From positions 744,001-808,000 of the forward strand of contig JANFAH010000009.1 of NCBI GenBank assembly GCA_024663395.1: a stretch of 64,000 bases of DNA, read 5' to 3'. Each line of letters opens with the position of its first letter. The first letter of the stretch is position 1. Below are positions 6,250 to 36,450 of this stretch, piece by piece. The translations under genes and the position numbers were made by a program. The DNA is from Pisolithus tinctorius (taxonomy: Eukaryota; Basidiomycota; Agaricomycetes; Boletales; Pisolithaceae). The notes beneath the pieces are model-generated. The model saw nothing but the letters and a program-made list of their open reading frames with translations, had not been told where the DNA came from and did not search any database.

Positions 6250-8646
6250 ATGTCCCCAGTTGCAGAGAGGGTCCTCTTGGTGGACTCTTATGACTCCTTC
6301 ACATTCAAGTCGGCTTTCTCGTGCACGATCAGCAATACCAACTAATCTGTTTTCTTTTCTAGCCTTGCGGCTCTCTGTCGCAAAGCAGCACCAGATTGCT
6401 GCATTCACATCATCAAAAACGACCAGCTATCCTTCCAGGAGCTATTATCGTACACTGATTATTTCTCTGCAATCATCGTTGGCCCCGGTCCTGGCTCTCC
6501 TGAAAAGCCAGAAGACATCGGAGCCGCTAATCACCTTTGGGGAGTAGACGATTCACGCTTGGTGCCAACTTTCGGGGTCTGCCTTGGTCTCCAAAGTCTG
6601 GCTACTCAGTACGGCGGGAAAATAAAAAGATTACCTGTCGTTAAACACGGCCAGGTGTCCGTGGTGGAGCATACAGGCGGAGACATTTTCGAGGGAGTCG
6701 GTATTGTAAAGGCAGTGCGGTACCACTCTCTCCATGTCGAACTTAGCGGTAGCGAGGACCTGGAGGAACTCGCATGGAGTTTCGACGACGACGAGAAGAC
6801 GAAAATCACTATGGCTCTCAAGCACAGGAAGCGGCCTTTCTGGGCCGTGCAGTACCACCCTGAGTCGGTCCTTACCGAGGGCGGCGGATTTGAAGTGATG
6901 TCCAACTTCTGGTGTCTCGCGCGTTCTTGGAATACTGCTCGTAACCGTTCTCCCATACCTTGGGACAGCAAGGCATCCTCTGTTTTCGGTTCGCCGTGGC
7001 CTAACCTACGTCTGCCATCCATTTCGAAACACTCCACTGATTCGCGAACTGTACTCACGACTACGCTCCATCTCCCTGATTTGCAGGCGGTGACGATATG
7101 TGAGCTTCTCGACGTGACCAACGACAAGTCACCGTTCGTGATGCTGGAGTCAGCTGCTGGGCCTGGTCGTTATACTATCATCGGTTGCTTGCATGCATCG
7201 TCGCCTCACATTACTTACACCATTGGTGACGACTTCCTGCATTTGCAACAAGGGAAGTCCTGTTCGCGCGTCCCTTTGGAGTCTCAAGACGTATGGTCAT
7301 GGGTAGCGGACTTCATGAACCAAAGGAAAGCGTCTGGTGGCCTCCCGAACGTGCCCTTCTGGGGAGGTTTGGTTGGCTACCTATCATATGAAATTGGTGT
7401 TGAAGCCCTTTCGATACCCATAACGGCAACTGGGAAGCAACTTCGTCACCCTGACATGAACCTTGTTTTCGTGGACCGCAGCATCGTCCTTGACTTGGAA
7501 GATGGTACTATCTATCTTCAATCAATTTTGGAAGGCGACCAGAAATGGCTCATTGATACCACTGAGCTCCTCCGCTCCGCAGCTCAGGAGCACTCCACTC
7601 CTACTATTGTCGCTCCTTCCTCGCTGAATGCGCGGACGAGTTTTTCCCTACCCGATGGTAAGACTTACCAGAACCGTGTTTCCACTTGCCAGGAATACCT
7701 CTCTTCGGGCGACTCCTACGAGTTATGCCTCACAGCACGGACGAGGATTACCCTTCGTGACCTGCCCCTGGTACCATCCGAGACGGAATCACCATCATGG
7801 CAACGCTACAAGTTCCTGCGTGAGCTCAACCCCGCGCCTCACGCTGGTTATCTACGACTACATCCAACGACATTAGTCTCATCGTCCCCAGAACGATTTC
7901 TGTCCTATTCCCGCCCACCCGGAGCAACATTCCAGTTACGCCCAATCAAAGGAACCGTTCGCAAAGGGCCAGATGTCACCCGCACTGTAGCTGAGAAAGA
8001 ATTAAAGGGGAGCCCCAAGGAGGTTGCCGAAAATCTCATGATTGTCGACTTGATTCGCCATGACCTTCATGGTGTAGTTGGCGAGGAAGTTGATGTGAAG
8101 CAGTTCTGTGCTGTAGAAGAATACAGCACGGTATGGCAGCTCGTTAGCGTTATCGAAGGGAAGGCTGGCGACGAGGTGGACGCGCCAGACAGCCGTTGGG
8201 CAAACGGCGCACTTGGTTGGGAGTGTCTGAAACATAGTCTTCCTCCTGGTGGGTCCACATATCATCCTACTCATCAAAGCTGTCTGTTCTGACACGTATT
8301 GTTTGTAGGTAGCATGACTGGTGCACCAAAGAAACGTAGTGTCGAAATCCTTCGCACCCTCGAGGACGACGAGCGAAATGTTTACTCTGGTGTACTCGGT
8401 TACTGGTGTGTAAGCGGTGCAGGCGACTGGTCGGTTACCATCCGCAGTTGTTTCAAGTATGATGGACGCTATGGCTGCGAGCACGCCCCTGGGGCACCGC
8501 CTGACGATCATGACGAAGAATGGGTTATTGGCGCCGGTGGCGCCATCACAGCATTGTCGGAGCCCGAAAAAGAATGGGAAGAAATGCTCATCAAACTGCG
8601 AAGCGTTCTCCGTGTATTTGGGTACTCAGCTTCGCGGGAAAACTGA
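6250..8646 (+). CDS. ABZ1: aminodeoxychorismate synthase (PabA-PabB fusion)
   Basis: Bifunctional para-aminobenzoate synthase of the folate pathway, about 760 residues: exons 6250-6308, 6363-8248, 8309-8646. The N-terminal class I glutamine amidotransferase shows VGPGPGSPEKPED, the nucleophile in FGVCLGLQS (Cys about 93) and the His/Glu part of the triad in WAVQYHPES (about 184). It makes ammonia from glutamine. The C-terminal chorismate-binding half shows GGLVGYLSYE, SSPERFLSY, RPIKGTVRKG, LMIVDLIRHDLH and GSMTGAPKKRSVEI. The lysine in PIKGT (about 548) is the residue that separates PabB-type enzymes from anthranilate synthase (PIAGT), so 4-amino-4-deoxychorismate is the expected product. 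Intron 1 has a GTCGGC donor but a clean CTAAT branch site. Chorismate mutase at 22.6 kb uses the same substrate. Confidence 0.95.
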
Positions 8647-20488: not shown

Positions 20489-22652
20489 CCTCGGAAGATA
20501 TCCACACACGTCAACAATTTGTCATGGGATACGTCGATCGATCGGGCGTAAAGTCTGGCACCTCTATATGTTACCACGTTCGTGATTAACTGCTTCGCCG
20601 AAAAGTGATCATCCAGTCTCCGACATTGCACCATAGTGCGAAATTTAATACACTTCCCCTGCTTGAGTTCTCCACTATCGAATTGCTGACTGCCCTTGAC
20701 TTGCATGTCATGTGACTGAATATTTATTACTTCTGATTTTCTGTCATTTCTGTCATCTCCAGGGGGATAGGGGGAGACGAGCGGTACTGATTGCCACCTT
20801 CCGGTGGCGTCTCTTATCTGCTGATATGCAGATCTTTCTTCGAACTGGCCCTGACCATGGTTGGATGAACGATTACCATCGCATTCGCCAGCATTAGCAC
20901 AAGGCGTGGTCCTTATGCTACTTTCGCCGGACTATTCACCCTTACATCATACAAATACCTAGTACCTCACTCTGAAGAGCAGATGAGATCTTAGCTGGGA
21001 CGGTGTGACGAGTCGGCTGAATGGGTTGACCTGTTTTGGTATCGCTGAAGGAACAGGATATTAGGCTTCTCTGCAGTTACACACTAATATCGGCCGAAGA
21101 CTTTTCGAACGTGATCTCCCCATCAGCACCATCCGACACCTACGACACGTGGGGGACATTCTAACCGCATACGTCCGACACTTTGGGAGGACGGGATTCG
21201 TGCACGCCAATCTCCTTCGAATGGGAACAGGTGTCTCGCAGCCTGCGATTCTACGTCTTTAACCATTACACAATCATTTTGTCCCTGGACTTCCAGTGAA
21301 CTGCCGCTTGAGGTCGTTTAGCACTAGTCCGATTGCGGATAGACGCCCAAAAACTTGCGACTTACAGTAAATACTCACCACAAGGGTAGAGTCGGACAAG
21401 TAGTGAATACCAACGTAATCGGCAGCCCTGAATAGGGGGAACAACACCTCCGGCCACCCGTTAATGATCGTAGGTGGGTCGTCGTGCACACGGACTCAAG
21501 TTGGACCGTACACGGGCAACTCACCTCCGGCAGGATCGAGGGCCAGAGATCCACTTGTTGGGAAGTGACGGAAGCAGACACTGGACAGGTTCCTGGATCC
21601 CTGTTACTGCGCATGCACTGTACATCGTCACACATGCCGGATTCGACGTCTTCCTATGGGGTGGCCAAATTTTCTCACCGTGCTCAAGGTTTGCATTTCT
21701 GTGATGGGCCGGATAACAGCGGATAACGTGGTAGGATGTTCTCCCGTGGATTGAAGGAATCTAATTTCTGATAATGAATACGGTTCGGACCTTGCCCAAA
21801 CTGTTGCTCCAGTCCAGTCTAAGGTTGATGGGCGGCAAAATCGCCGTTAGGCGGGGCACGAACTGCAACCGACCGTTGGCCAATTCCTTGCTGCAGATCT
21901 CTGCGGGGTCAGCCCCCGCCCCCCTCCACTGCCGCAGAGCACTGAATGTTATGCGTCCAGTACAGCACTATCTAGAGTAGCCTTCAATGCTCGAGCAAAA
22001 TTACTACAGATAGAGCGCTACCGAAACGATGCTGTGCCGATAGCGATATCATTATTACAAGCATGCGGTATTAGGACACGCTCCGTCCATTGTTCCGAGC
22101 AGCTCTGCGGCGCAAGAATGGCGCATGAAAGTTGAATTATGCCCGCACACTATGCCAGTTAGTTTAGTACTAAATCCACCTGCTTCTAGGCGGCGGTGGC
22201 CATAAGTGGGGTAGATCTGGCACGAGATAACAATCGGTAAATACCACCTCCGGGATGTCACGTCGGGGCGCGCTGGCAACTTGACTGAATGGCTAATCAG
22301 TGGATCTGTCCCCCTTTCCAGGGCACCTGCATCAGACAACTTGAAACTGGGTGATGGGTGATATGGTACTGACCGGTGTGGCCGTTGACCGGCTGGTACA
22401 GAGAGATAGGAGTTGTTCGGTTGCCAGTGCCATCGCTGATATGATATTGTGCTTGACACCTGCCCGCTCTGTCTCCTCGCCTTACATGAGGAAAAGGGTC
22501 TAGGTTAGTATGTAAACACAGTGCCCTTTACCACAAGCCTGTGCTCCAACCTTGCTCCGGCAAGCTGTATTCGACCATAAAAACCCACCTAATACCACCA
22601 ACCCCACCGAATACTTTCCCTCTCTTCTGATAAATCGCACTACAACTAAAAG
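20489..22652. other. 2.2-kb gene-free stretch between THI4 and chorismate mutase
   Basis: No exon with a recognisable family was found on either strand. The longest open frame (minus, 22055-22459, 134 codons) has no domain and no intron logic. The region holds the divergent promoters of THI4 and chorismate mutase and is unusually long for this window. Confidence 0.45.
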
Positions 22653-23833
22653 ATGCTGTCTCAAAATTGCGTGCACGTAGGGGACCCTCTGTCCCTAGAA
22701 CGCATTCGATCAATCCTAATTCGCCTGGAAGATACCATCATCTTCGGACTAATAGAACGAGCGCAGTTTGCACACAATGCCAAGATGTACGTCAACGGTG
22801 GGATCCCTGAGCTTAAAGAAAAAGGCATCGAAGGCAGCTGGCTTGGATGGTTTTTGAGAGAGATCGAGACATTCCATGGTTCGCTATCTTTTCCCTTCCC
22901 TCGCCATCTCATGCCAATAAGCTGAAACGTAAAATCACTTTAAAAAAAACGCAGCCAAGGCCCGCAGATACACGAGGTACGTCCCCTATCCTCTCCCGAG
23001 ATTTTTCTTTTACATCCACGCTAATCTGCGTTTCTGCCGTGAAGTCTCGATGAATATCCATTCACATCTAACCTCCCAGAGCCTGTCCTTCCTCCTCTTG
23101 CGTTCCCAAAAATCTTGTACAAAAACAACGTCAACGTCAACCCTTCCATCCTCTCCTTCTATACCCGCTTCATCGTTCCTCGCATAACACAGCGAGCAAC
23201 CATTGCACTCTCTGCACTCAAGCGCTCCAATGGAATCGTCGGCGGAGACGAGTGCGAAGACGATGCCAACTATGGCAGTGCAGCAACTATAGATGTAGAA
23301 ATCTTGCAAGCTATCAGCAAGCGTGTGCATTATGGTGCGTACAGCACCATTTTTTGCTTTAAAAAGAATCCGTCAGCTAGGTCATTGTCTGATGGGTGTC
23401 TTGACTACAGGGAAATTCGTGGCAGAATCCAAATTTCGGGACCACCCCGCCGCGTTCGTCCCCCACATCCGTAGTCGCAACGCAGCAGAACTAGAAGAAC
23501 TGATCATGAGGCGAGACGTAGTACAGAAGCTACTCACGCGGCTCCGAAGGAAGGCCGCGACGTATGCTCAGGAATTTGGGCCTGACGGCGAGCCCATTGC
23601 TAACTCGCATTTGAATGGCAATGCAAAGGTGGACGTGGATGGCGTTGTTGAGCTGTACGAGAACTACATCATCCCTCTCACGATTGAGGTCGAGGTAGGG
23701 GCTCTTCCGGATACCTGATCGAGTGTCCGTGCGTGCTGATATGTCACCTGCTAAGGTCGACTATCTCCTTCAGAGATTGGACGGATTGAGTGAAGCGGAA
23801 GTGGAAGAGCTTATGGGGACCAAGCCAAATTGA
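22653..23833 (+). CDS. ARO7: chorismate mutase (AroQ, yeast Aro7 type)
   Basis: Converts chorismate to prephenate, the branch point to phenylalanine and tyrosine. About 299 residues: exons 22653-22878, 22955-22976, 23045-23334, 23411-23694, 23756-23833. Family landmarks: [20 protein letters not shown] near the N-terminus with the active-site Arg; an [20 protein letters not shown] stretch spanning the 22-base exon 2; [38 protein letters not shown]; and the end [15 protein letters not shown]. Length and the central regulatory-loop region resemble the eukaryotic, allosterically controlled AroQ enzymes (tryptophan activates and tyrosine inhibits in yeast). The intron 1 donor GTTCGC is atypical, but the phase fits. 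Confidence 0.95.
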
Positions 23834-24426
23834 GGTAAAGACGATCCCGCAGGCACAGCTCAATTGCTCCCTATCTGCTACTTACGATAATGTGTAATAC
23901 AGTACCGTACATATTCAACCCCGCCTGGGGTGCTGAGAGCTGATCCGGTTGTCACGAGCGTGTCATGAATTTAAGCGATTTTGATTTTAGATGTAAGCAA
24001 ACCCGGATCCATCCCATGATTCCCAAAACGAAGAAGGCAGGTTCGAGCCAAAAGAGGATGGGAAGGATGTGATAAGGGTGTTACAAGCGGCGTGTCGATA
24101 GATATGTAATAGAAAGGAGATGGGAAATGAATGATCCATACGTACTAGTAAGAATGCTGCAAGGTGGTATCACATTGACTGTGTTCGTTCTGCAGAAACA
24201 ACAACAAAAAGAGAGGCGAAAGTCAGGGGAGGGGCTAGTAGTGGGATAACAACAAAAGGGATACAAAAAACAATAGGTTGAACAAACAAGCGCGTCGGTC
24301 GGTAGGTGAAAGGGAGGATAACGCTAAATAAATGTAAGAGTATCAGGGGCACTTGGTTTTACAAACCGAGATCTGGGGGGGAAATCGATGAGTAAACCAC
24401 CCCCCCTTTTTGCGAGAGAGCAGCTA
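23834..24426. other. convergent intergenic region
   Basis: Shared 3' region of chorismate mutase (plus) and the septin-like gene (minus). It is A-rich and purine-rich on the plus strand, with no coding signal. Confidence 0.5.
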
Positions 24427-26772
24427 CTAACCTTCCAACAGACGCTTTGCCTGTTCAGGTCCAATGGCTCTTGTGGCACGTTTAGCCAAGAGTTTCTCAG
24501 TTCTGTACCTTTCGTACAACACTTCCCGAGTGTGAACTTTGAGTACCTGCATTGAACGAATGACGCGACCCAATAATAATATGCATCAGTTCCCAATTCC
24601 GTGAGAGCAACGCAAAAACAGAAACGTAATAAAAAGGCAAACCTTCATGTGCGTCAATAACATGGCAGTTCGCAGGGCGGCGAAGTCACAATGGTCAGGG
24701 TTGAGTACGTCAACGGTTCCCCATCGGAACTTCCTCTTGAATACACCCCTCAGATCTTCCGGCGGAGTCTGATTGTACACCGGTTTGCGGGTTATGGTAG
24801 CGGGGCTATCCGGGGGTCCCCCCGTCATTGACACTTCTGTCACAGGGGTCGAAGAACTATTAAGGTCTTCACGGGGAACGGATGAGTCAGGGGTCACCAT
24901 CAACGGGTGCAATTGTATTGTCCGCGGAGACTCCAGCGGCTCGGGCGCGATGAATGCGAACGGCAATAACGTTCCCAAGTCTGTTTTCGCCAGCGTCTGT
25001 GCTGAAAAGCGTACATTCGCGACGCTCAGCTCGTCCACTTCCTCGGGGAAATGTGGCTCTCGCTCATCTTGGGCAAGAGCAGAGAGGTCCCTGCGAGAGC
25101 GGGACCGGGACCGGGATGGAGCTTGTCTAGTCTTTACTCTTATGACTGGACGTGATGCTCGTCGATGACCGTCCTTGGGCTCCATCGCCTCGGTGTCAGG
25201 GGTCGCGTGGGAATCGCCGTTTAGATGTTGATCCGAAGGGGTGCTGCCGTTACCAGCTGGATCGTTTTCATTGGCAGCAGCTGGTATTTGTCGAGACGGC
25301 GAAGAATCTCCATCTTTCGCCGTCATGGGCGTAGAGAATATACCAAAGTCCAATTGCACTTCATGCAGACCCCTGCGGACGGCATCTTTAACGGCAGATA
25401 GGGCGCTATCGGTGAGGGAGTCTGCACGTGCAATTATGGGAAGCACATTAACACGTTCCGACAGGCGACGGATCACCCGAAGCTCGGCCGGTGACATGGT
25501 GAGTTCACCGGGAGTGCTTGAGTCCGGGAGGTGGTCCTCCGGTTCCAACGGGCGTACAGTTGAAGACGAAAGCCTCGTCTCTGAGTATGCCTTTCTTGGG
25601 AGCGACGACGACTTCGCGCGGTGCGCGTCGCTGGTCATGATAGAGGAGGGGTCGATCATGAAAATACACCTGACACGAGTAAGACACACCATTTTAATGA
25701 TCAATTTCAAAGGCGCGAAAACTCACAAGTGTATGTGCTGATCTCCTCTACTCTGCCGAACGACTTTACTTTCCTGTCATCATTAATTGACGTTAGCAAA
25801 AGCAAACCACGGACCATGTTACATCGGCAGGAAGAAAATAACGAACTTCGATCATAGTATCCGCATACTGTTGGTCAATATACCTGATAATACTCGTAAC
25901 CTGACGCTCCACACCCAACTCCTTGCCTTCGCTGAAGTCCAAGCCGGGGGTGTCAATGACAGTCAGAAGCACTCTCTCATATCGAGATTCGGATGTCTCG
26001 ATGCAGGCCGTGTTGATCGACTGGGTCTGTTTGAGCTCGCCCCGGAGAAAACGGTGCAACGATGCGCGTTGTTCTTCTGATGCGGCCGACGAAATGTCTG
26101 AGGTATCGAGGAGAAGACGGAGGAGCGAGGTTTTGCCAGTGCCTCGACCACCCACGACCTGAAACATTACATATATCAATCCAAACGCGTTCGTCTCAGC
26201 CACCCCAGCGTATCCAATTGATCGAGAACAAAAAGAAAGAGAGACTCGCTACTCACCATGAGATTAAAAGCGGGAGGGTTCCTATTTTTCCTATGCACAC
26301 GTCTCGCAACTACAGTCGGCGCATTCGTACTGGCGGGAGTACTGCTCCTCCAATGATCGAACGCAGGGTAGGCACTTTGGGGAGACATATACAACGAAGA
26401 TATAGACACCGCTCCATTGTGAACAGCAGCTGGATGATACAGCTGGTGACTATGTTGATTGTGACCTGGTTGTAACCAAAATGGTTTGTGGAAAAGAATC
26501 GGCGGGGCGCGGTCGAGCGAATGTAAGGAGCTTTTGACCGCACCTTGTTGTTGACGGTAATGCAGTAGCGACACCGATGATTCCATTTCCCCCTCCCCCT
26601 CCTCCTCCCTCTTTGCATTGGGCACTGGAGTTTCGCGCAGGACAGTTGCATCTACCAGGTTCTCCGGCCATGGAATGCCTTGGGCGTGCAGTTCGGGGAG
26701 AGAAGGGGACGACCTCAATGGCGGGGCCGACGTTGTGCTCGTGTCTTTGGGTCGCTTTCGAAAGGAAAACAT
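24427..26772 (-). CDS. septin-like GTPase A
   Basis: Divergent septin-family GTPase of about 673 residues: exons 26772-26257, 26158-25847, 25773-25727, 25669-24643, 24546-24427. A 170-residue Ser/Pro-rich head precedes the P-loop GGRGTGKTS (175-183). Switch II is DTPGLDF (241-247), the strand IHLCIFMIDP is typical of septins, and the G4-like motif is ARAD (372-375, AKAD in classic septins). The septin-unique element is RWGTVDVLNPDHCDF (607-621), followed by TREVLYERYRTEKLL, a normal septin end. A low-complexity insert of about 220 residues interrupts the domain. Septins form filaments at the cell cortex; whether this divergent one polymerises is unknown. A paralogue of the same layout starts 3.7 kb upstream. 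Confidence 0.85.
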
Positions 26773-27469
26773 GTGATGTTACAAAGCCCCGAAGAGCGAA
26801 AAAAAAAAGGAGCGAAAAGATAAATGAAACAAGCGAGAGAAAGAACGTATGGATAGGATATGTGCACTGATCGCGGCGGCCTGCTACTAACTCGGTAGCA
26901 GGGAAACTTTTGGAGGTAGACTGTGGAAAGTGAACAACCGTAGGAACAAAACGACAGAACTGAAGTCCCCCCGACGTCCCTGTCAAAAATTACATACCAT
27001 GGCAACGCCGGGCTTCTGGTGGTGGCATCTTCTGTCCGCTCTGCTCGCACGTATGTATTCACAATCTCTGAACATTCTTAACACATACATACAGATAGCG
27101 AGTAGTAAATTGGGTGGCTGGCTGAAGGGGGAGGGGGAAGCCAAAGCCGATGTGAGTTGCAACCAAAGAACGGAAGCGAGCGTGGTAAAATACAGTACAT
27201 CTGTCCAACGTGCAGGCGAAAGAGACAGGGAGACAAACAGAACTCATGCACAACCCAAAAAAAAAGAAGTGATGGATGATATCAAGAGACGATAGCAACA
27301 GCAGCCTTGCAAAGGGGCAAGCATAGAGCAAACGAGCCGGGCCAATTCTACAAGCCATACCCAGATGGCATTTGAAGGTGGAAAAAAAAATTGAGGGAGG
27401 GAGCGTGCCAGTTGGAAAAATGCGGATTTTTTGATACTGTAACATTGTGTAAATGCCGGTCGTTCGCCT
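26773..27469. other. promoter region of septin-like A
   Basis: Pyrimidine-rich on the minus strand with several T tracts (near 27258 and 27383), as in fungal promoters and leaders. No exon is supported. Confidence 0.5.
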
Positions 27470-30400
27470 TCAGGGTATGCTTTCAACGGCGTCGCCCACC
27501 CTTATTCTCTTTTGAGTTTGTTGGGGGACGTCAACCTCGTCAATCTTCCTCTTCAAATCGACATCCATGGGCTCGCCGCAGCCTCCGATCGTCTCCTCCA
27601 GCGGCGTTCCATTAGAAAAACGAGAATCACCGACAACCGTCGAGGACGGTGGCGAATGCGTGGGGGTGTGCAGCGCGCTCGAGGGTGTTGGGCCAACAGC
27701 CTGCATGATTTTTGATGATATCGATGCGCGTCGAGCACCCTTCTTATTTCCCCCGTTATGACCGGTGCTATGATTATAATCACACGGAAGCTGCCTCCGG
27801 GCGCAGCTCGAGCACGCTGGGTGTGCACCATCACACTTGGTCTTACGCGCTATATTATGTACATCGTCACACTCGTCAGCATGCGTCGAACTTGCATGAC
27901 GATCGAGGACAAGAACAGGGACTTACCCCTGCAGAAGTTGCATGCCACCACTTTCGGTCCGGCGCTAGTGGCCTGCCGACTGCTCCTCCCAGGCATGGTA
28001 GATGCACGTTTCCTCTGCGCAGCCTGCTGTTCCGAGGCTGGCCGGATGAGAGGCAATGGTTGGGCCGTCATCGCGGCGGCCGCTGTTGTAGGGGATCTGT
28101 CGGGGAGGGACAACGTGGCGATATGCGGCAATTCGTTGTCTTTGAAGAGGGAGCGTCCCTCTGATACGGACGAGCCTCCAGGTACGCTAGGTTTGGGGCG
28201 AACGATGGGAACGATTGCTGGCAGCAATTCACGCGGCTCCGAGGGCCCTGCAGCAGCATGGGGCTGTGCGAAACCATCGAGTATGGGACGCTTGTCAGCG
28301 TTGGAGCTCTTGCGGGACAGGGGCTGAGAAGAAGCCATCTCGGGGGGTGTCACCGAGGGATCATTTTCATCGACGGATCTGTCGTCGCCGCCGCTGATAT
28401 CGGATTCGGACTCGTCTTCCTTGCGACGGTGAGAATTCCGACGTTTGCTGTTTTGTGGCATGTAGTCGCACGAGTTAGATCGTTTGACACATTGACTACA
28501 CGCCGGTCGACCACCGTCGCATTTTAGTTTACGAGCTGTGTGGAATATGAATACGTCGTTGCATCAACCAATTTGCCACAATTCTTTGGCTACTCACAAC
28601 GACAAAAGTTGCATGCAACAGTAATCTTCTTCGTGCGCTGTTTGGAGGACCCTAAAGATAATGATGATGATGTGACGACGACGTTTTTATGTATGTAAAA
28701 GATTGTTGTCAAGCCGATGGTGGGAGAAACTTACTCGGGGCCACTTTGACGTTATTGTGGGAAGAATTTATGCCGTCAGACAAGGGTCTTGAAATTGGCA
28801 GGGGGCGCATATCTGTCCCTGGTGGGACACCGTCACGAGATATTGATAGGGATGTATGGCGGACAGCAGCCCCGCCATGGTTGGGTGGAGAGGTCTCGAT
28901 GCTCAATGCAGGTCGTAAGGGATGATTGAGGGGAAGCTGGGAACGCGGAACGATGTTTGATTGTGTGTGAAGGAGGTGATTGGGTGGGTGGTGCTGGGCG
29001 AGATATTCGGCTCTGAATTTTTCAAAAAGATATTCGCGGGTATACTTCTGCAGGGTCTTGAGAGGGGGTTGTTGTTGTTGTCAGGAAATCGGTTACGACG
29101 GGGAACAAATAAAACGGGGTACATACTTCCATGTGATGAAATATAGCACAGCGGAGGGACATGAAATCGCATTGGTTCGGATCTAGTACGTCCATAGATC
29201 CCCAGCGATAGCTCCTAATAAATTTTCCACGGACGAGTTTGGAGGGGGTAGGATAGTGTGGAGAGGGTGTGTATTGTTGAACGAGTTCGTGGCGAGGGGG
29301 GGACACCCTCGCGACGCCATCGCTGTGAGAATAGCATTCAGGGGAGATGAGAGCATAAGGCAAGCGTAGGTATGAGGGGGTTGTGGGAGAAGTAGGGGGG
29401 GACGGATGAGCGGGAGAAGATCTATTAGTCCGGGAGGGATAGCCATTTGGGATTTCACTTTTGACAGGGTGTCCAGACTCGGCCACGTCTTTACGGTGCT
29501 GATACTGCGGGTGCATGTCCATATCGAAGATTCCAAAACCGATGCCGGCTTCTGCGAGATCTCGGCGTATGGCGGTTTTGACGGCAAGGAGACGGTCGTT
29601 GGTCAACGTGTCCGCGCGTGCTATGACGGGGAGCACGTTGACTCTGGCAGACAGCCTCCTGATAGTGTTTATTTCCGCGGAGGGAAGGGTGGGACGACAC
29701 AAGAGGGGGTTTGTGGTGACGGGTGGTTCCAGGATGACGGGTTCGGAGTCGGTGTGTGAGAAGCTGTTTGTGCGAGCGCGGGAGAGAAGGGGGGCGGGAG
29801 GGCCTGGCACACAGGAGGGAGGGGGGATGATCACGTCGGGATCCAGAAAGTAGATGCACCTGTATTAACTGGAGTGAGAGGGACGACTGAATGAAGCGCG
29901 CCTTGGGGGAACGCACAAATGGATGTGATGGTCACCGGTCTGGGCCTTCCACTCCTGTGAGATAAAGAGGGGTATGTATATGAGCGGAGTGGACGAGGGG
30001 GGAGGGGCGGGACTGGCTTACGTCGTCGATGCCTTCGGCGAAGCGGGCGTCGACCTGTCTGAGGATGTCCTGGATAGTGCGCTCGACGGAGTGGTCGTCG
30101 GAGAAGTCGAGAGAGGGGGTGTCGATGAGAGTGAGTGCGAGCACCTGCGGGTTGCTGTTACTGGTACTGCTGGTGTTATTTCCGGGGTCGAAGTCGATGT
30201 TGACGTTGACGGAGCGGACGTGGGCGGTGTGTCCGCTGCATCCCTGGACGAACTTTGCGACGGAGACAAGCTGATCCTTTGTGGCTGTTGTGGAGATGTC
30301 GCTGGTGTCGAGGAGGAGACGGAGGAAGGATGTCTTTCCGGAGCGTTGGCCGGCGACCATCAGGGTGTATCCTCTGTAGGGATGAGATGCTCCGGGGCGC

Positions 30401-30519
30401 AGGCCGTTGGCGGCGGAGGGCGGGGGATGGGACGGGGGGTAGTGGGAGAGCATTCGGGCGACGGAGGAGAGGGACGACGAGCGTCTGCGATGGTCGTCGC
30501 CGGGGACGGCGAGCGGCAT
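27470..30519 (-). CDS. septin-like GTPase B fused to two Zn2Cys6 domains
   Basis: One continuous model of 874 residues: exons 30519-30022, 29954-29917, 29859-29127, 29047-28735, 28651-28598, 28535-27927, 27849-27470. The N-terminal half is a septin-like GTPase: P-loop AGQRSGKTS (56-64), DTPSLDF (133-139), IHLCIYFLDP, ARAD (259-262), septin-unique element RWGSMDVLDPNQCDF (397-411) and KYTREYLFEKFRAEYL. No stop follows. The frame runs on through a linker of about 100 residues into a Zn2Cys6 cluster (Cys 541, 544, 551, 558, 561, 568) and, about 175 residues later, a second one (744, 747, 754, 761, 764, 771). Both have exact CX2CX6CX6CX2CX6C spacing. Zn2Cys6 clusters bind DNA in fungal regulators. 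The only alternative start for a separate factor is an in-frame ATG at 28810, inside the open frame. A septin-transcription factor fusion is new to me. Confidence 0.75.
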
Positions 30520-30709
30520 GACAGTCCCGGCGAGGAGGAGAGGAGAGGAGAGAAGGGGTGCTGAGGTGAGGCAAGCGCGGGGAGGACCAGACCAGACCTG
30601 GCTGGCTGGCAGATAAACACCGATATTCCAGAAAATAATAACTAACAGAGGGCAACGAGAACGGAGCCGAGCGCCAGAAACCGAGCCAATCGGATGCGTG
30701 CATCACCCG

Positions 30710-30730
30710 TTATTATTATTATTATTATTT
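30710..30730. repeat. TTA trinucleotide microsatellite
   Basis: About six TTA repeats between the septin-like B start and the stop of the next gene. A CCAAT box lies at about 30686, oriented on the plus strand. Confidence 0.8.
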
Positions 30731-30782
30731 TATCTTAGCGATCGGGGTCCTGCCTCCGTGCGACAACATTCCCATATCCAGC

Positions 30783-32392
30783 TCACGGCGGGTCGTCCCT
30801 CGACTCGGCCCGAGACGACGACCCCGCGCTCAACTCGTACTGGCCAGTCATAATATTAGCCTCGCCGCCCTCCGAGGCCTTCTTTCCTTTTCCCTCCTTC
30901 TTCCGTGACCCCTTCGGCGCCTTCCCCGGCCCACGCCGCCGCGGGTGGTCCTGGTACTTGCACTCCAGCGACCGCGTAGCACAGTTCGAACAGCTCGGCT
31001 TGGTCCCATCACATCGCAGCTTGCGTCCTGCCCAGCCACTTCAGCGCAATCGGCAAAAATATTATCGAATAGCGTCTCTCACCTCTGCAGAAATCACACG
31101 CGACGTAGATCTTGCGCACCACCTTGGTCTTCTTGCCCTGCTCCTCTTCTGTCTCTCCCATCGACACCTCCGACTGTCGTTTCTTCCCCCGCCCTCTCGA
31201 TCTGGCGCTCGATGACGCAGCCCCAGCCTCCTCCCCAGGCCGTCCCCTCTCTTCCGGTCGGTCCCTATCTCTTCCTGTTGGCACACTGATCTCCCCGAGC
31301 TGCTCGGGGACACGTAGTCTTGGCAACGACGGAACATCATACTCTTGCGACCCCCTCGCTCCAATCTCTCCTAGTAGCTGGCTCACAGGTGGAAGAACCA
31401 CCTTGCGTGCTGATGCTGCAACGTCACCCCCACGCCCGGCAATCCACGCACTGCCCGAAGAAGTAGGAGCCCTGCTCCGTTCTTCTTCCCTAGGCATTGC
31501 CCCCCCGTAAGCCCTCCCATAGTGCGAGTCTGGATAGTGCGGCGGTGGTCGCATCGTATCCCCTTCTTCGTACACTGTGTTGTACCTTGTAAACCTTTTC
31601 CAATCCTTACACCGGTTTTTTTTGTCTCTCCCATGCTTACCTTGGTGAGATGACCCTGCCATCGACCTTCTGTTCTCCTCGTAAGTCCTCGAGAAATACC
31701 CAGATCTATAGAGATCTCCTCGTTCAGGTACGTCCAGATACCATTCAAATTAAACCAGCCTCGTACCGAGCCATCTCGTACCCCCGACTCCCTCCTGTCG
31801 TTAATTCATGCCGCTCTTCTCCCTCTACGCGTTGCTCCAGCCCGCGGTACGATTCTCTTCCCCCATGTGCTGGCCAGGGCGCCAGATGTGCCTCTCCCGG
31901 CGGCCTCCATCCTTGTACACCAGGCAGTGGGTAAGGCGGGGGAACGGGTGGGGGGATCGTATATGAATGCTGTGCTAGGTGGCCATACCCCATCTCACCT
32001 CTAGACAAATTTCTTGTCATCGCTACCTGGGGGACGACCGAAGATGCGCCAATATCTTCCCCAATCGCCTCTCGTGAGAACGACGTTGAATACGAGCCCG
32101 ACTCGTCGTCTTCTCCCGGTGTTCCAGAGTCCAGCGGTGACAATGCTCTGTCACCACTATTCTCATCGCTGGGAAAGATGGCCGGCGTCGTCAGTGACGC
32201 CATCGGATTGGGGGCAGGCGAATATGAGAAACGCTGCTGTTGTCGCTCAAATGCATGCGACGATGATGGTCCAACCTCGGAGGACGAGGATATCGATCTC
32301 TCTGGTGCCACCACTGTATCTCGCGGTTGCTCCAAAACATATCGATGCAGCTCTTCTGGAAGCGAGTATTTTCCTTGACCGGAATTAGCCAT
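30783..32392 (-). CDS. protein with C-terminal Zn2Cys6 cluster
   Basis: About 475 residues: exons 32392-31767, 31705-31641, 31574-31083, 31027-30783. The first intron donor was chosen by phase (GTACGA at 31766); the others are clear. Most of the protein is Ser/Pro/Gly-rich disordered sequence. A single Zn2Cys6 cluster lies near the C-terminus (Cys 390, 393, 400, 407, 410, 417; VACDFCRGRKLRCDG), followed by a basic Arg/Lys/Gly tail. Most fungal zinc-cluster factors carry the domain at the N-terminus and a middle homology region, both absent here. The cluster is split by an intron at the same codon and phase as both clusters of the neighbouring septin fusion. The target genes are unknown; it is presumably a nuclear DNA-binding protein. 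Confidence 0.8.
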
Positions 32393-33220
32393 TCAGGTGG
32401 GACTATGGCTAGATTATTGAAAACGGGACGATAATATGATGATTATGATGATGTGGTGATCCACTGGTCGGCGAGCAGTTACTATGGGTGGGTGTGTCGA
32501 TGTCTTCCTTCGCGCGGGGCATACAATAATGACGTGAATTCTGGTCGAGTTGTTGCATATACGTGCGCCTCGCTCGTGTGATGAAATGGCCGTCCTCTCT
32601 ACAAGGACACACTGGACGAGCTGGACGAGGCGGTCGTTGGGAATGATGGCTGTGAGCGAGGAAGACGACGTACGGGAAACGTGAAAATCCCGCTGGGATA
32701 GGTTTGACCATCCGCTATCCCATCGGCTTAAGCAAAAGATAAGTTCCGGGTCGACCGACACGACAAACAATGTGTACCGGTATGGGCTTGTCAATATACC
32801 GACTTTGATATCACCTGCGAGATATGGCACGCCGTGGTCGTGAATCTCGCGCGGCAAAAGGTCATGCATCATGCACAAACTGTTAACAATCCGAAAGCCC
32901 CGCCCCTCCCAGAAAATTTTGTGCTCGTCCCTTTTGAAATTGCAAGTTTGAAGTATGTCGTCCCCTTTTCGTCCCCTTTGGTGATATAATTTGCAGCCAC
33001 ACCCTTTCGCGGGTGCTGACCCAACAACACCTGCCAACGACTCTCTTGCAATCACGCCCGTAGTTACCAGCGCCGCTGGGGCCCTCCCCCATTATTATCT
33101 CGTCTCCTAAACCCCTTGGTTCCCCCCCTTGTCAGCAAGTGGAAGGCTTTGTCACTGCGTCCAAGCAAGAATTGATCCGGGGCCCATAGCAGCCCCAACC
33201 GCCAAGATCAGGATTGGTCA

Positions 33221-33230
33221 TATATAAAAA
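33221..33230 (+). promoter_or_regulatory. TATA box
   Basis: TATATAAAAA on the plus strand, 11 bases upstream of an ATG at 33241 that opens a 29-codon peptide. It is too close to that ATG for a normal leader. Confidence 0.4.
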
Positions 33231-33240
33231 GTGAGACATT

Positions 33241-33330
33241 ATGATCGACACGGTTGCAAAATCTGATTATTTTGACCCCTCGCGATTCGAACTTCCAAAT
33301 ATGTCTGGAAAGGTTCCTGTCCATCGGTAA
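33241..33330 (+). pseudogene. possible N-terminal relic of a short-chain dehydrogenase
   Basis: A 29-codon frame reads YFDPSRFELPNMSGKV and stops. Just downstream, in another frame, VIVVT follows. Together these recall the start of fungal short-chain dehydrogenases (a Phe-Asp-Pro head, then LSGKVxIVTGG). The glycine-rich NAD motif is not recoverable and nothing further matches. Weak evidence; it could be chance. Confidence 0.25.
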
Positions 33331-34040
33331 TAGTAGTCACGCCAAAGTCTAATTTGTTGACAGATCAAGTTAGAAAGTGGAGGCAGGTATGTACCATACC
33401 CCCACAGTGCGGCGAACTAACAGCATTGGCAAAAGCTACTGCGGCCAAACACATATCCATATCGAAAGAGGGAGATGGGCGGCCTAGGCTTAATTGGTGG
33501 CGGCGGGGACAATCGGAGATGGAGTTCACGCGCCAACTCATCCGTCCTACGATCCGTCCGAATTTCCAATTCGGAGGGCACGCTGCCATCGAATTTCCGC
33601 TGGCGTGACTGTACACTACATAGCAATGCATGGGCCCCTGACAGCTACCAATAATAATAGTGCCAAGTTTCTCCACGGGTGGAATCTGACCACGGTGTGG
33701 GTTAAATAAAAGTTCCATGGGTAATCAAACGTGAAATTTTCAAAAGTCAAATTGAGTGGAAGCTGCGCTCGGACTTTTTCTCTCTCAGAGCAAACCCAAA
33801 TTGTGGGCCTTCTAGACTGCTTGACTAATACTCTGCTTGCCATTTGACACTGACTCGCCGAAGAGGGGTACTACCATTTATGGATTCAGCTCAAGAACAG
33901 ACCAAGTCAGGGGCTGCTTAGCTAAGCAGTTTATTCCAAGACGCGGATTTTTCTTTTCGAGTCCTTTTTTCTGAGTTGGCACCCGGTGGTTCGTCCTGAC
34001 TCGAATTGTCGCTGCTCGTAGTCACAGAGAAGCGACAGCG

Positions 34041-36450
34041 ATGCTACAGTCGAGATTCACAGCTACTACGTCCAGAGCGTGTACACGCTCTCACCTCGCA
34101 AAATGTACATTGTCGCGGACGTTCCGTTCGTCCTGCACAACATGGGACGAGACCAAAAAACCTATCATGAACCGCCACAGCAGGACGATTACGCAGCCTA
34201 AAGACCAGGGAGCAGGACAGGTAAATCAGCGCATCCCGTTTTGCTCGAACAGCCGGAGATTGTGTATGTAGGTTTGTACTAAAACCTTCCTTAGGCCATG
34301 CTGTATGCTACGGAGGGTATTAAGAGTGACGATGACTTCCAAAGAGCTATGATTGGTGTTGGAAGCGTGTGGTAAGTAAGTTCCACGTGTCATTCAAATC
34401 GCTTGACGCGTAACGGGTGTGCGTGCCCAGGTACGAAGGCAATCCGTAAGCAACTCCGAGGGGGCGTACATACATACACCGAATAATCAAATTCGCACCC
34501 CCCACAGATGCAACCGCCACCTCCTAGAACTGGGCAAAGAAATCAAAGCCTCCATCTACCAAGCCGGAATGATCGGATACCAGTTCGGCACGGTCGGCGT
34601 GAGCGACGGTATGAGCAACGGGACGTCAGCGATGAATTATTCCCTCCAATCGCGCGATCTCATCGCCGACCAAGTGGAGACCGCTGCAGCGGGTCACTGG
34701 CTCGATGGTATGGTCGTCGTGCCAGGCTGTGATAAAAATATGCCAGGGGTTATCATGGCTCGTAAGTCGTTCCTGGTATAGAAGTAACCTACCTGTATAT
34801 CTCATCAAAAAGCCTCGCAGTTGGACGCCTGAACAGGCCGGGCCTGATGGTTTATGGAGGTACTATACGTCCAGGGTCTTGTGAAGGGCAACCACAATTG
34901 GATATTGTCTCCGCCTTCCAGTCTTATGGGAAATACATCCAGGACGGTAAGACTCCCGATGCAGAAGCATTTCGGTACAACACGGTGCGACACGCCTGTC
35001 CCGGGCCTGGCGCATGTGGCGGTGTGCGTGCTTTTAATCCAAGGAATCTCCGTGAAGACGCATATTGACAAATTAAATGGCTAGATGTACACTGCAAATA
35101 CGATGGCCAGTGCCATAGAAGCACTTGGGATGTCGCTCCCGGGCTCGTCATCTTTCCCCGCTGAATCACCGGAGAAAATCGAAGAATGCAAAACTGTCGG
35201 TGCTGCCATGCGGAACCTTGTCGAGAAAAACATTTTACCGAGAGATATCATGACTCGTTCTGCCTTCGAGAATGCGATGGTACGTCCGCGCGTGACCACC
35301 AGTTATTGTCACTTTAATAAATAATAATTTATCGCCGATTGACGCGCTGAAAATGACACAGGTCTTGGTCATGGCACTTGGAGGCTCGACAAATGCAGTA
35401 CTCCACTTGATTGCGATGGCACACTCGGTTGGTATCACCCTCACACTGGATGACTTCGCTCGTGTTTCGGAGGCAACGCCGTTCTTAGCAGACCTCAAGC
35501 CGAGCGGTAAATACGTTATGGAAGACGTATACAAACTTGGCGGCATTCCCAGTGAGTAGTTGAAACATGTGACATTTATGGGCGGACAAGGATGGCTTAT
35601 TTGACCCGCTTCAGAGGTCCTACATTACTTGATGAAGAATAACCGTATAGACGGGAACAACATGACCGTCACGGGCCTTCCGCTCGGAGAGAACCTTGAG
35701 CGCTGGGTACACAAGCACGGTGAACTTTCTCCAAACCAGGACGTTATTCGCCCGCTTGACAACCCAATCAAAACGTCTGGACATATCCGGTAAGTGCTGT
35801 GTTGATAGGGCTCATCCCCGTGGTTGATTGGTCGATAGAATTCTGCGCGGTAACCTGGCACCTGGGGGGGCTGTCGCGAAGATTACGGGAAAAGAAGGTC
35901 TTAACTTTACGGGAACGGCACGGGTCTTCAACTCGGAAGAAGAGTTCGTCCCTGCTGTGGAGTCCGGTTCCATCAAGAAGGGCGAGAAAACCGTGGTCGT
36001 CCTGCGGTATCTTGGCCCTAAAGGCGGGCCTGGAATGCGTGAGATGCTCAAACCAACCAGTCTCATTATGGGCGCTGGTTTAGGAAAAGATGTTGCCTGC
36101 TTGACTGATGGCCGGTTCAGCGGAGGGTGCGTGTTTGTTCTGCTCAAATTGGGGAGGTTATCTTCTTATACAGTTGACTGATTAATGCCGCTCGTAGATC
36201 GCATGGTTTCTGCATCGGACATGTTGTTCCCGAGGCTCAGGAGGGAGGAGCCATTGCTCTGGTAGAGGACGGCGACATTATATCTGTCGATGCCGTATCC
36301 AACACTATTGAGCTTCACATCACTCCGGAGGAGATGGAACGCCGTAGAAAAGCATGGAAAGCCCCTCCTTTGAAAGTTACCCAGGGTACCCTCATGAGAT
36401 ATGTGAAGACCGTGACGGATGCCAGCCACGGGTGTATCACCGATGCATAA
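34041..36450 (+). CDS. ILV3: dihydroxy-acid dehydratase
   Basis: Mitochondrial Fe-S enzyme, third step of branched-chain amino-acid synthesis. About 609 residues in ten exons: 34041-34220, 34295-34371, 34431-34445, 34508-34761, 34821-35023, 35085-35279, 35362-35551, 35615-35789, 35839-36126, 36198-36450. The N-terminus is rich in Arg/Ser/Thr with few acidic residues, as in a mitochondrial presequence. Cluster cysteines are visible in [22 protein letters not shown] and [11 protein letters not shown]. Other signatures: [48 protein letters not shown] and [20 protein letters not shown]. Exon 3 is only 15 bases. The C-terminus faces RIO1 convergently with 135 bases between stops. Confidence 0.96.

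Follow-up and report, generated by a model that had tools for sequence, protein, structure and literature searches.

A predicted Pisolithus tinctorius gene joining a divergent septin domain to two zinc clusters

Although fungal septins and zinc-cluster regulators have both been well studied, the joint record that we found for the two families is a single printed sentence. One of 66 zinc-cluster genes that Hou et al (2020; PMC7295025) list for Pleurotus ostreatus is PoZCP55, in which the Pfam Septin domain (PF00735) appears in three stretches and is followed by two C-terminal zinc clusters, which forms a clade of its own within the PoZCP set, and whose coding sequence is among GenBank entries MN652925-MN652990. 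The gene models of that set were corrected against mapped RNA-seq reads; the passages concerned do not name the PoZCP55 junction, and PoZCP55 is itself a gene model. In the open-licence literature we found neither another record of septin and zinc clusters in one protein nor a functional study of such a family. Septins matter for mushroom form: in Coprinopsis, Cc.Cdc3 has been described as essential if the stipe is to elongate properly (PMC4035324).

Here we describe a gene that fits the PoZCP55 pattern in the genome of Pisolithus tinctorius (92.5 Mb, 221 contigs). The window that we analyzed is a stretch of 64,000 nucleotides, C9:744001-808000. On its minus strand, from 30519 to 27470, seven exons of the septin B gene splice without a stop into 877 codons ending in TGA (Table 1), with introns of 57–83 nt that all have GT-AG sites. 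From N- to C-terminus, the predicted protein consists of a septin G domain of divergent type, a 99-residue linker that separates the septin end (residue 444) from the first cluster (residue 544), and two complete Zn2Cys6 clusters. It matches the PoZCP55-type description, in which a single gene encodes septin stretches and, C-terminal to them, two zinc clusters; the order, the number of clusters and the three-piece septin match are the same, a likeness taken from the published description. A first-pass annotation of this DNA knew of no such combination, which had in fact already been printed in one sentence on PoZCP55 (PMC7295025). Because the same layout is reported in the oyster mushroom, the combination is probably real, and the gene product is most likely a genuine, conserved septin–zinc-cluster protein.

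Table 1. Coordinates of the fusion gene and its neighbors, in positions of the window.
Feature	Coordinates	Strand	Description
Upstream gene	30783..32392	-	Single Zn2Cys6 cluster near C-terminus (CDFCRGRKLRCDGTKPSCSNC); 5' exons approximate
Exon 1	30022..30519	-	Start codon 30519; P-loop AGQRSGKT from 30354; DTPS at G3 position from 30123; Pfam Septin
Exon 2	29917..29954	-	EWKAQTGDHHIHL; both flanking introns equal those of septin A in position and phase
Exon 3	29127..29859	-	Remaining G domain; ARAD at G4 position from 29621; septin unique element RWGSMDVLDPNQCDF from 29207
Exon 4 (composite)	28735..29056	-	End of septin domain (to 28994) and open linker to donor 28734; in-frame ATG 28810 is residue 506
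Linker part ahead of ATG 28810	28811..28996	-	62 codons, which code for protein only in a true fusion; T fraction 0.204
Intron 4	28652..28734	-	GTAAGT...TTTAG, 83 nt, phase 1; retention would give a stop at 28709-28711 and a septin-only product
Exon 5	28598..28651	-	Basic stretch and start of zinc cluster 1 (CNFCR); first Cys codon 28613-28611
Exon 6	27927..28535	-	Remaining zinc cluster 1 (last Cys codon 28470-28468), spacer, start of cluster 2 (first Cys codon from 27942)
Exon 7	27470..27849	-	Remaining zinc cluster 2 (last Cys codon 27784-27782), C-terminal tail, TGA stop
Septin A	24427..26772	-	Divergent septin-like gene; own TAG stop; frame without zinc cluster

This gene model differs in one boundary from the first-pass annotation, which began exon 4 at 29047. 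The acceptor is better placed at CTCTCAAG/ACC, giving an exon start at 29056 that adds 9 nt and leaves the frame unchanged, because the neighboring septin-like gene, septin A, has the same boundary; the aligned sequences read HMK/VLKVHTRE in the fusion and HME/TLQKYTRE in septin A. The single fused protein first proposed is supported as an in-frame fusion, both by the sequence and by the published PoZCP55 architecture (PMC7295025), with a length of 877 rather than 874 residues. Likewise, the frame, the Pfam matches and the cysteine spacing agree with the original reading of an open linker that leads through a phase-1 donor into one Zn2Cys6 cluster and later a second.

Pfam assigns the N-terminal part to Septin (PF00735) in three stretches with an E-value of 1.6e-33 (116.6 bits against a cut-off of 26.2). 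Solved septins align piecewise within residues 54-444, of which residues 388-444, comprising the septin unique element and the C-terminal helix, align to solved Septin-1 (8dkt_A). The septin consensus motifs are GxxxxGK[ST] for G1, DTPG for G3 and AKAD for G4. The P-loop of the fusion fits the G1 pattern, with A as its first residue; its G3 and G4 motifs, in contrast, both depart from the consensus. In alignments to solved septins, the G domain, the unique element and the C-terminal helix are shared with the canonical fungal septins (Cdc3, Cdc10, Cdc11, Cdc12 and AspE), whereas ARAD replaces AKAD, DTPS replaces DTPG and the G domain carries long insertions, which also stand out against the solved septins. 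In the predicted protein, the position of the canonical C-terminal tail is occupied by zinc clusters of the DNA-binding type. The combination of ARAD and DTPS may mean that the nucleotide switch has been lost. Elsewhere in the genome, septins that score better occur at no fewer than four sets of loci, every set lying on two contigs; three of the four pairings were aligned, with identities of 98.5-99.6%.

In the C-terminal part, Pfam finds Zn_clus (PF00172) in two stretches with an E-value of 2e-19 (69.8 bits against a cut-off of 21), and a Pfam search of the whole protein up to an E-value of 1 returned nothing besides Septin and Zn_clus. Both clusters, at residues 544-571 and 747-774, read C-X2-C-X6-C-X6-C-X2-C-X6-C, a spacing that satisfies the published rule for Zn2Cys6 cluster proteins, C-X2-C-X6-C-X5-12-C-X2-C-X6-8-C (PMC7295025). 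Solved HAP1/GAL4 and PPR1 clusters match residues 537-585 and 745-781. The six-cysteine clusters are what the fusion has in common with GAL4-type regulators, the solved matches including HAP1/CYP1, GAL4 and PPR1; unlike in those regulators, the clusters sit C-terminally, number two and come without a Fungal_trans domain in the Pfam search.

An intron splits both fusion clusters at the same point, after CNFCR, in phase 1. The upstream zinc-cluster gene (32392-30783), which ends about 260 nt upstream of the fusion start, has an intron at the same point and in the same phase of its own cluster; the exon ahead of that cluster (31009-31749) had no Pfam match. Another cluster in the genome, present in three assembly copies, also appears to begin its exon at this point. 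The cluster-splitting intron looks like the trait of a subfamily and, since it also seems to occur at another genomic locus, does not by itself demonstrate local duplication.

A genome-wide protein search, which scores the best candidates, listed 42 matches: both copies of this locus, septin A, the remaining septins listed and single clusters with weak scores; among these, there were no further copies of the double-cluster part beyond the weak single-cluster matches. When the zinc-cluster part was searched against viral contigs and the genomes of prokaryotes, 13 and 23 pattern stretches, respectively, came up, none of them a relative, as expected since the gene is fungal. Separately, C6:1594595-1595053 (minus strand) holds two zinc-cluster matches about 260 nt apart on the same strand, either a two-cluster gene or two close genes; these clusters are absent among the relatives of the fusion that the protein search found among its best-scored candidates.

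Septin A starts 0.7 kb downstream of the fusion stop. Its product aligns with the septin part of the fusion at 41% identity over 254 columns and 49% over 61 columns, and three intron positions with their phases are common to the two genes when the introns are compared by eye. On these alignments, the predicted septin part is a paralogue of septin A. The last exon of septin A closes with TAG after the septin helix, while exon 4 of the fusion continues into the linker. The septin A G domain has long low-complexity insertions of its own, and better-scoring septins lie elsewhere in the genome.

The locus is present twice in the assembly, as a DNA search of the genome returned copies on C9 and C82 among the matches listed. 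Over 15,008 aligned columns, the C82 copy (197000-212000) differs from positions 20947-35954 of the window by no substitutions and seven one-base deletions, all of them in single-base runs, and three of these deletions would break septin exons. The C82 copy is the same haplotype at this locus with more errors, and it is silent on alleles or evolution. Exon 4 (29056-28735) is identical in the two copies, which may share reads. In another C9/C82 pair, 59 of 3,123 columns are mismatched; it seems that close to its end C82 joins the C9 haplotype.

Is the linker coding, and are there one or two genes? No in-frame stop interrupts the stretch between the septin C-terminus and the donor at 28734. The first stop in the unspliced frame comes only at 28709-28711, inside intron 4, just as the first-pass annotation had described an open frame past the septin C-terminus. 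Given that no septin-frame stop precedes this point, a septin-only mRNA must keep at least that part of intron 4. The condition that had been named as evidence against the fusion, a polyadenylation site between 28980 and 28810, needs revising, since such an mRNA would leave the septin frame without any stop. On the other side of the intron, exon 5 has no Met, and the unspliced frame of cluster 1 is open back only to about the donor and contains no ATG. The zinc-cluster part needs intron 4 removed, so the same splice would yield the fusion whenever a septin transcript extends across it.

In T content, the linker is closer to exons than to intergenic DNA. Its T fraction of 0.204 compares with 0.247-0.425 in intergenic windows (60 overlapping 186-nt windows from two flanking stretches) and with a median of 0.194 in 282 exon windows; its G fraction of 0.156 corresponds to the 5th percentile of the exon windows. 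The T-richest 12-mer has 5 T in the linker exon, 7 in intron 4 and 9-11 in three intergenic stretches. Poly(A)-like hexamers fail to separate these regions, with one CATAAA in the linker exon, one in intron 4 and 0, 1 and 0 in the three intergenic stretches. Of 3,000 dinucleotide shuffles, 14.6% leave the 87-codon tail without a stop; multiplied by the one-in-three coincidence of frame, this gives a joint value of about 5%. The openness of the linker is suggestive of a fusion without deciding the matter alone; once the published case is counted in, the observation exceeds chance. With two training sets, the linker frame outscores the other two forward frames in codon usage, but its score is within chance (P ~0.13) and low for true coding; when the score is trained on the fusion gene alone, another frame beats it. 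We judge it very probable that the septin and the zinc clusters are encoded as one fused gene, and we infer a single mRNA in P. tinctorius.

The same locus might give several products, namely the fusion, a zinc-cluster-only protein starting at ATG 28810 and a septin-only protein in which intron 4 is kept, with the separate products carrying most of the function. We consider this rather improbable. ATG 28810, rightly placed inside the open frame by the first-pass annotation, is the sole in-frame ATG of exon 4 and is in frame with both clusters, making a zinc-cluster-only product possible, and retention of intron 4 gives a clean stop (28709). In addition, passages of a long-read study of Agaricomycetes report co-transcribed tandem genes, enriched in tandem duplicates, that are also transcribed independently (PMC4503453). 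However, pyrimidines make up 56% of the 80 nt ahead of 28810, where the T fraction is 0.20, compared to 75% and 78% pyrimidine at the starts of septin B and septin A; the value at the start of the upstream zinc-cluster gene is 59%, so this is a weak argument. An out-of-frame ATG at 28878 also stands in the way, since it opens a 36-codon frame that overlaps 28810 and does so in the sequence ACCATGG, a strong start context. On a transcript starting just before 28878, this ATG would act as an upstream frame. Finally, PoZCP55 is reported as a single gene in the passages that describe it (PMC7295025).

To a similarly small extent, we can envisage that the fusion is made and its septin part is a passenger, a paralogue of septin A that has decayed, has neither a nucleotide nor a filament role and is attached to an ordinary zinc-cluster regulator. 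The off-consensus DTPS and ARAD and the long G-domain insertions relative to solved septins speak for this reading. In contrast, the septin fold is matched through its C-terminal helix, the frame is stop-free and the P-loop fits, and the architecture is reported in another fungus (PMC7295025). Moreover, ARAD stands at the G4 position of septin A too, and since it is shared it may be a family trait rather than a sign of decay.

Far less probable is that two separate genes only look merged, with relatives keeping a linker stop and a promoter and the P. ostreatus model being a merge error as well. There is a precedent in AspE of A. nidulans, a septin whose model, according to passages of that report, was once wrongly merged with its neighbor (PMC11238149); the adjoining septin A ends with its own stop, and the codon score of the linker is within chance. 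Together with the co-transcribed tandem genes described above, the AspE error keeps the rival explanations alive. Against two genes, intron 4 is reached in the septin frame without a stop and the two assembly copies agree fully over exon 4, so that two independent genes would need to overlap within one reading frame; the T content of the linker is exon-like; and mapped RNA-seq reads were used to check the PoZCP set, although the passages concerned do not name the PoZCP55 junction (PMC7295025). Least credible of all is an assembly error in the linker, a lost base that hides a frameshift and creates the joined frame: this type of data does err in such a way, as the one-base deletions of the C82 copy attest, but both copies agree across 29056-28735, possibly through shared reads, all seven exons are open in the C9 copy, and the same architecture is reported in P. 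ostreatus (PMC7295025).

The whole explanation that we favor, with some reserve, is a fused gene of the PoZCP55-type family whose product would work as a DNA-binding regulator. The mechanism itself is more tentative. The fusion would act as a regulator of this kind with a degenerate septin domain for assembly or tethering; its paired clusters could contact two half-sites in one chain, without a separate dimerisation domain, and its septin fold could allow the protein to assemble with itself, with septin A or with canonical septins, or could keep it outside the nucleus. Given that the G3 and G4 motifs are off consensus, we favor a structural, tethering or nucleotide-sensing role for the G domain over that of an active GTPase hydrolyzing GTP. 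It is unlikely, if worth stating, that this represents a mushroom family in which the septin G domain gates a DNA-binding regulator, through nucleotide-dependent assembly or septin-held retention until release. If such gating were true, the state of the cortex or septum would be read directly into transcription. The first-pass annotation had proposed that a cortical or nucleotide-switch module could be linked to direct DNA binding, an idea to be set beside the two off-consensus G-domain motifs. And if the fusion were general in mushrooms, it would provide a test case for a cytoskeletal GTPase fold controlling a transcription factor.

Two further observations concern other parts of the genome and window. 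A six-frame search of the genome, which can miss short exons, found one locus of the peroxidase family (PF00141), and this suggests a mushroom without class II ligninolytic peroxidases. P. ostreatus has several class II peroxidases, a contrast that fits two different species. In the window, an open frame at 6346-8289 on the plus strand carries glutamine amidotransferase, Anth_synt_I_N and chorismate-binding domains in one chain; its predicted product is of the aminodeoxychorismate or anthranilate synthase type.
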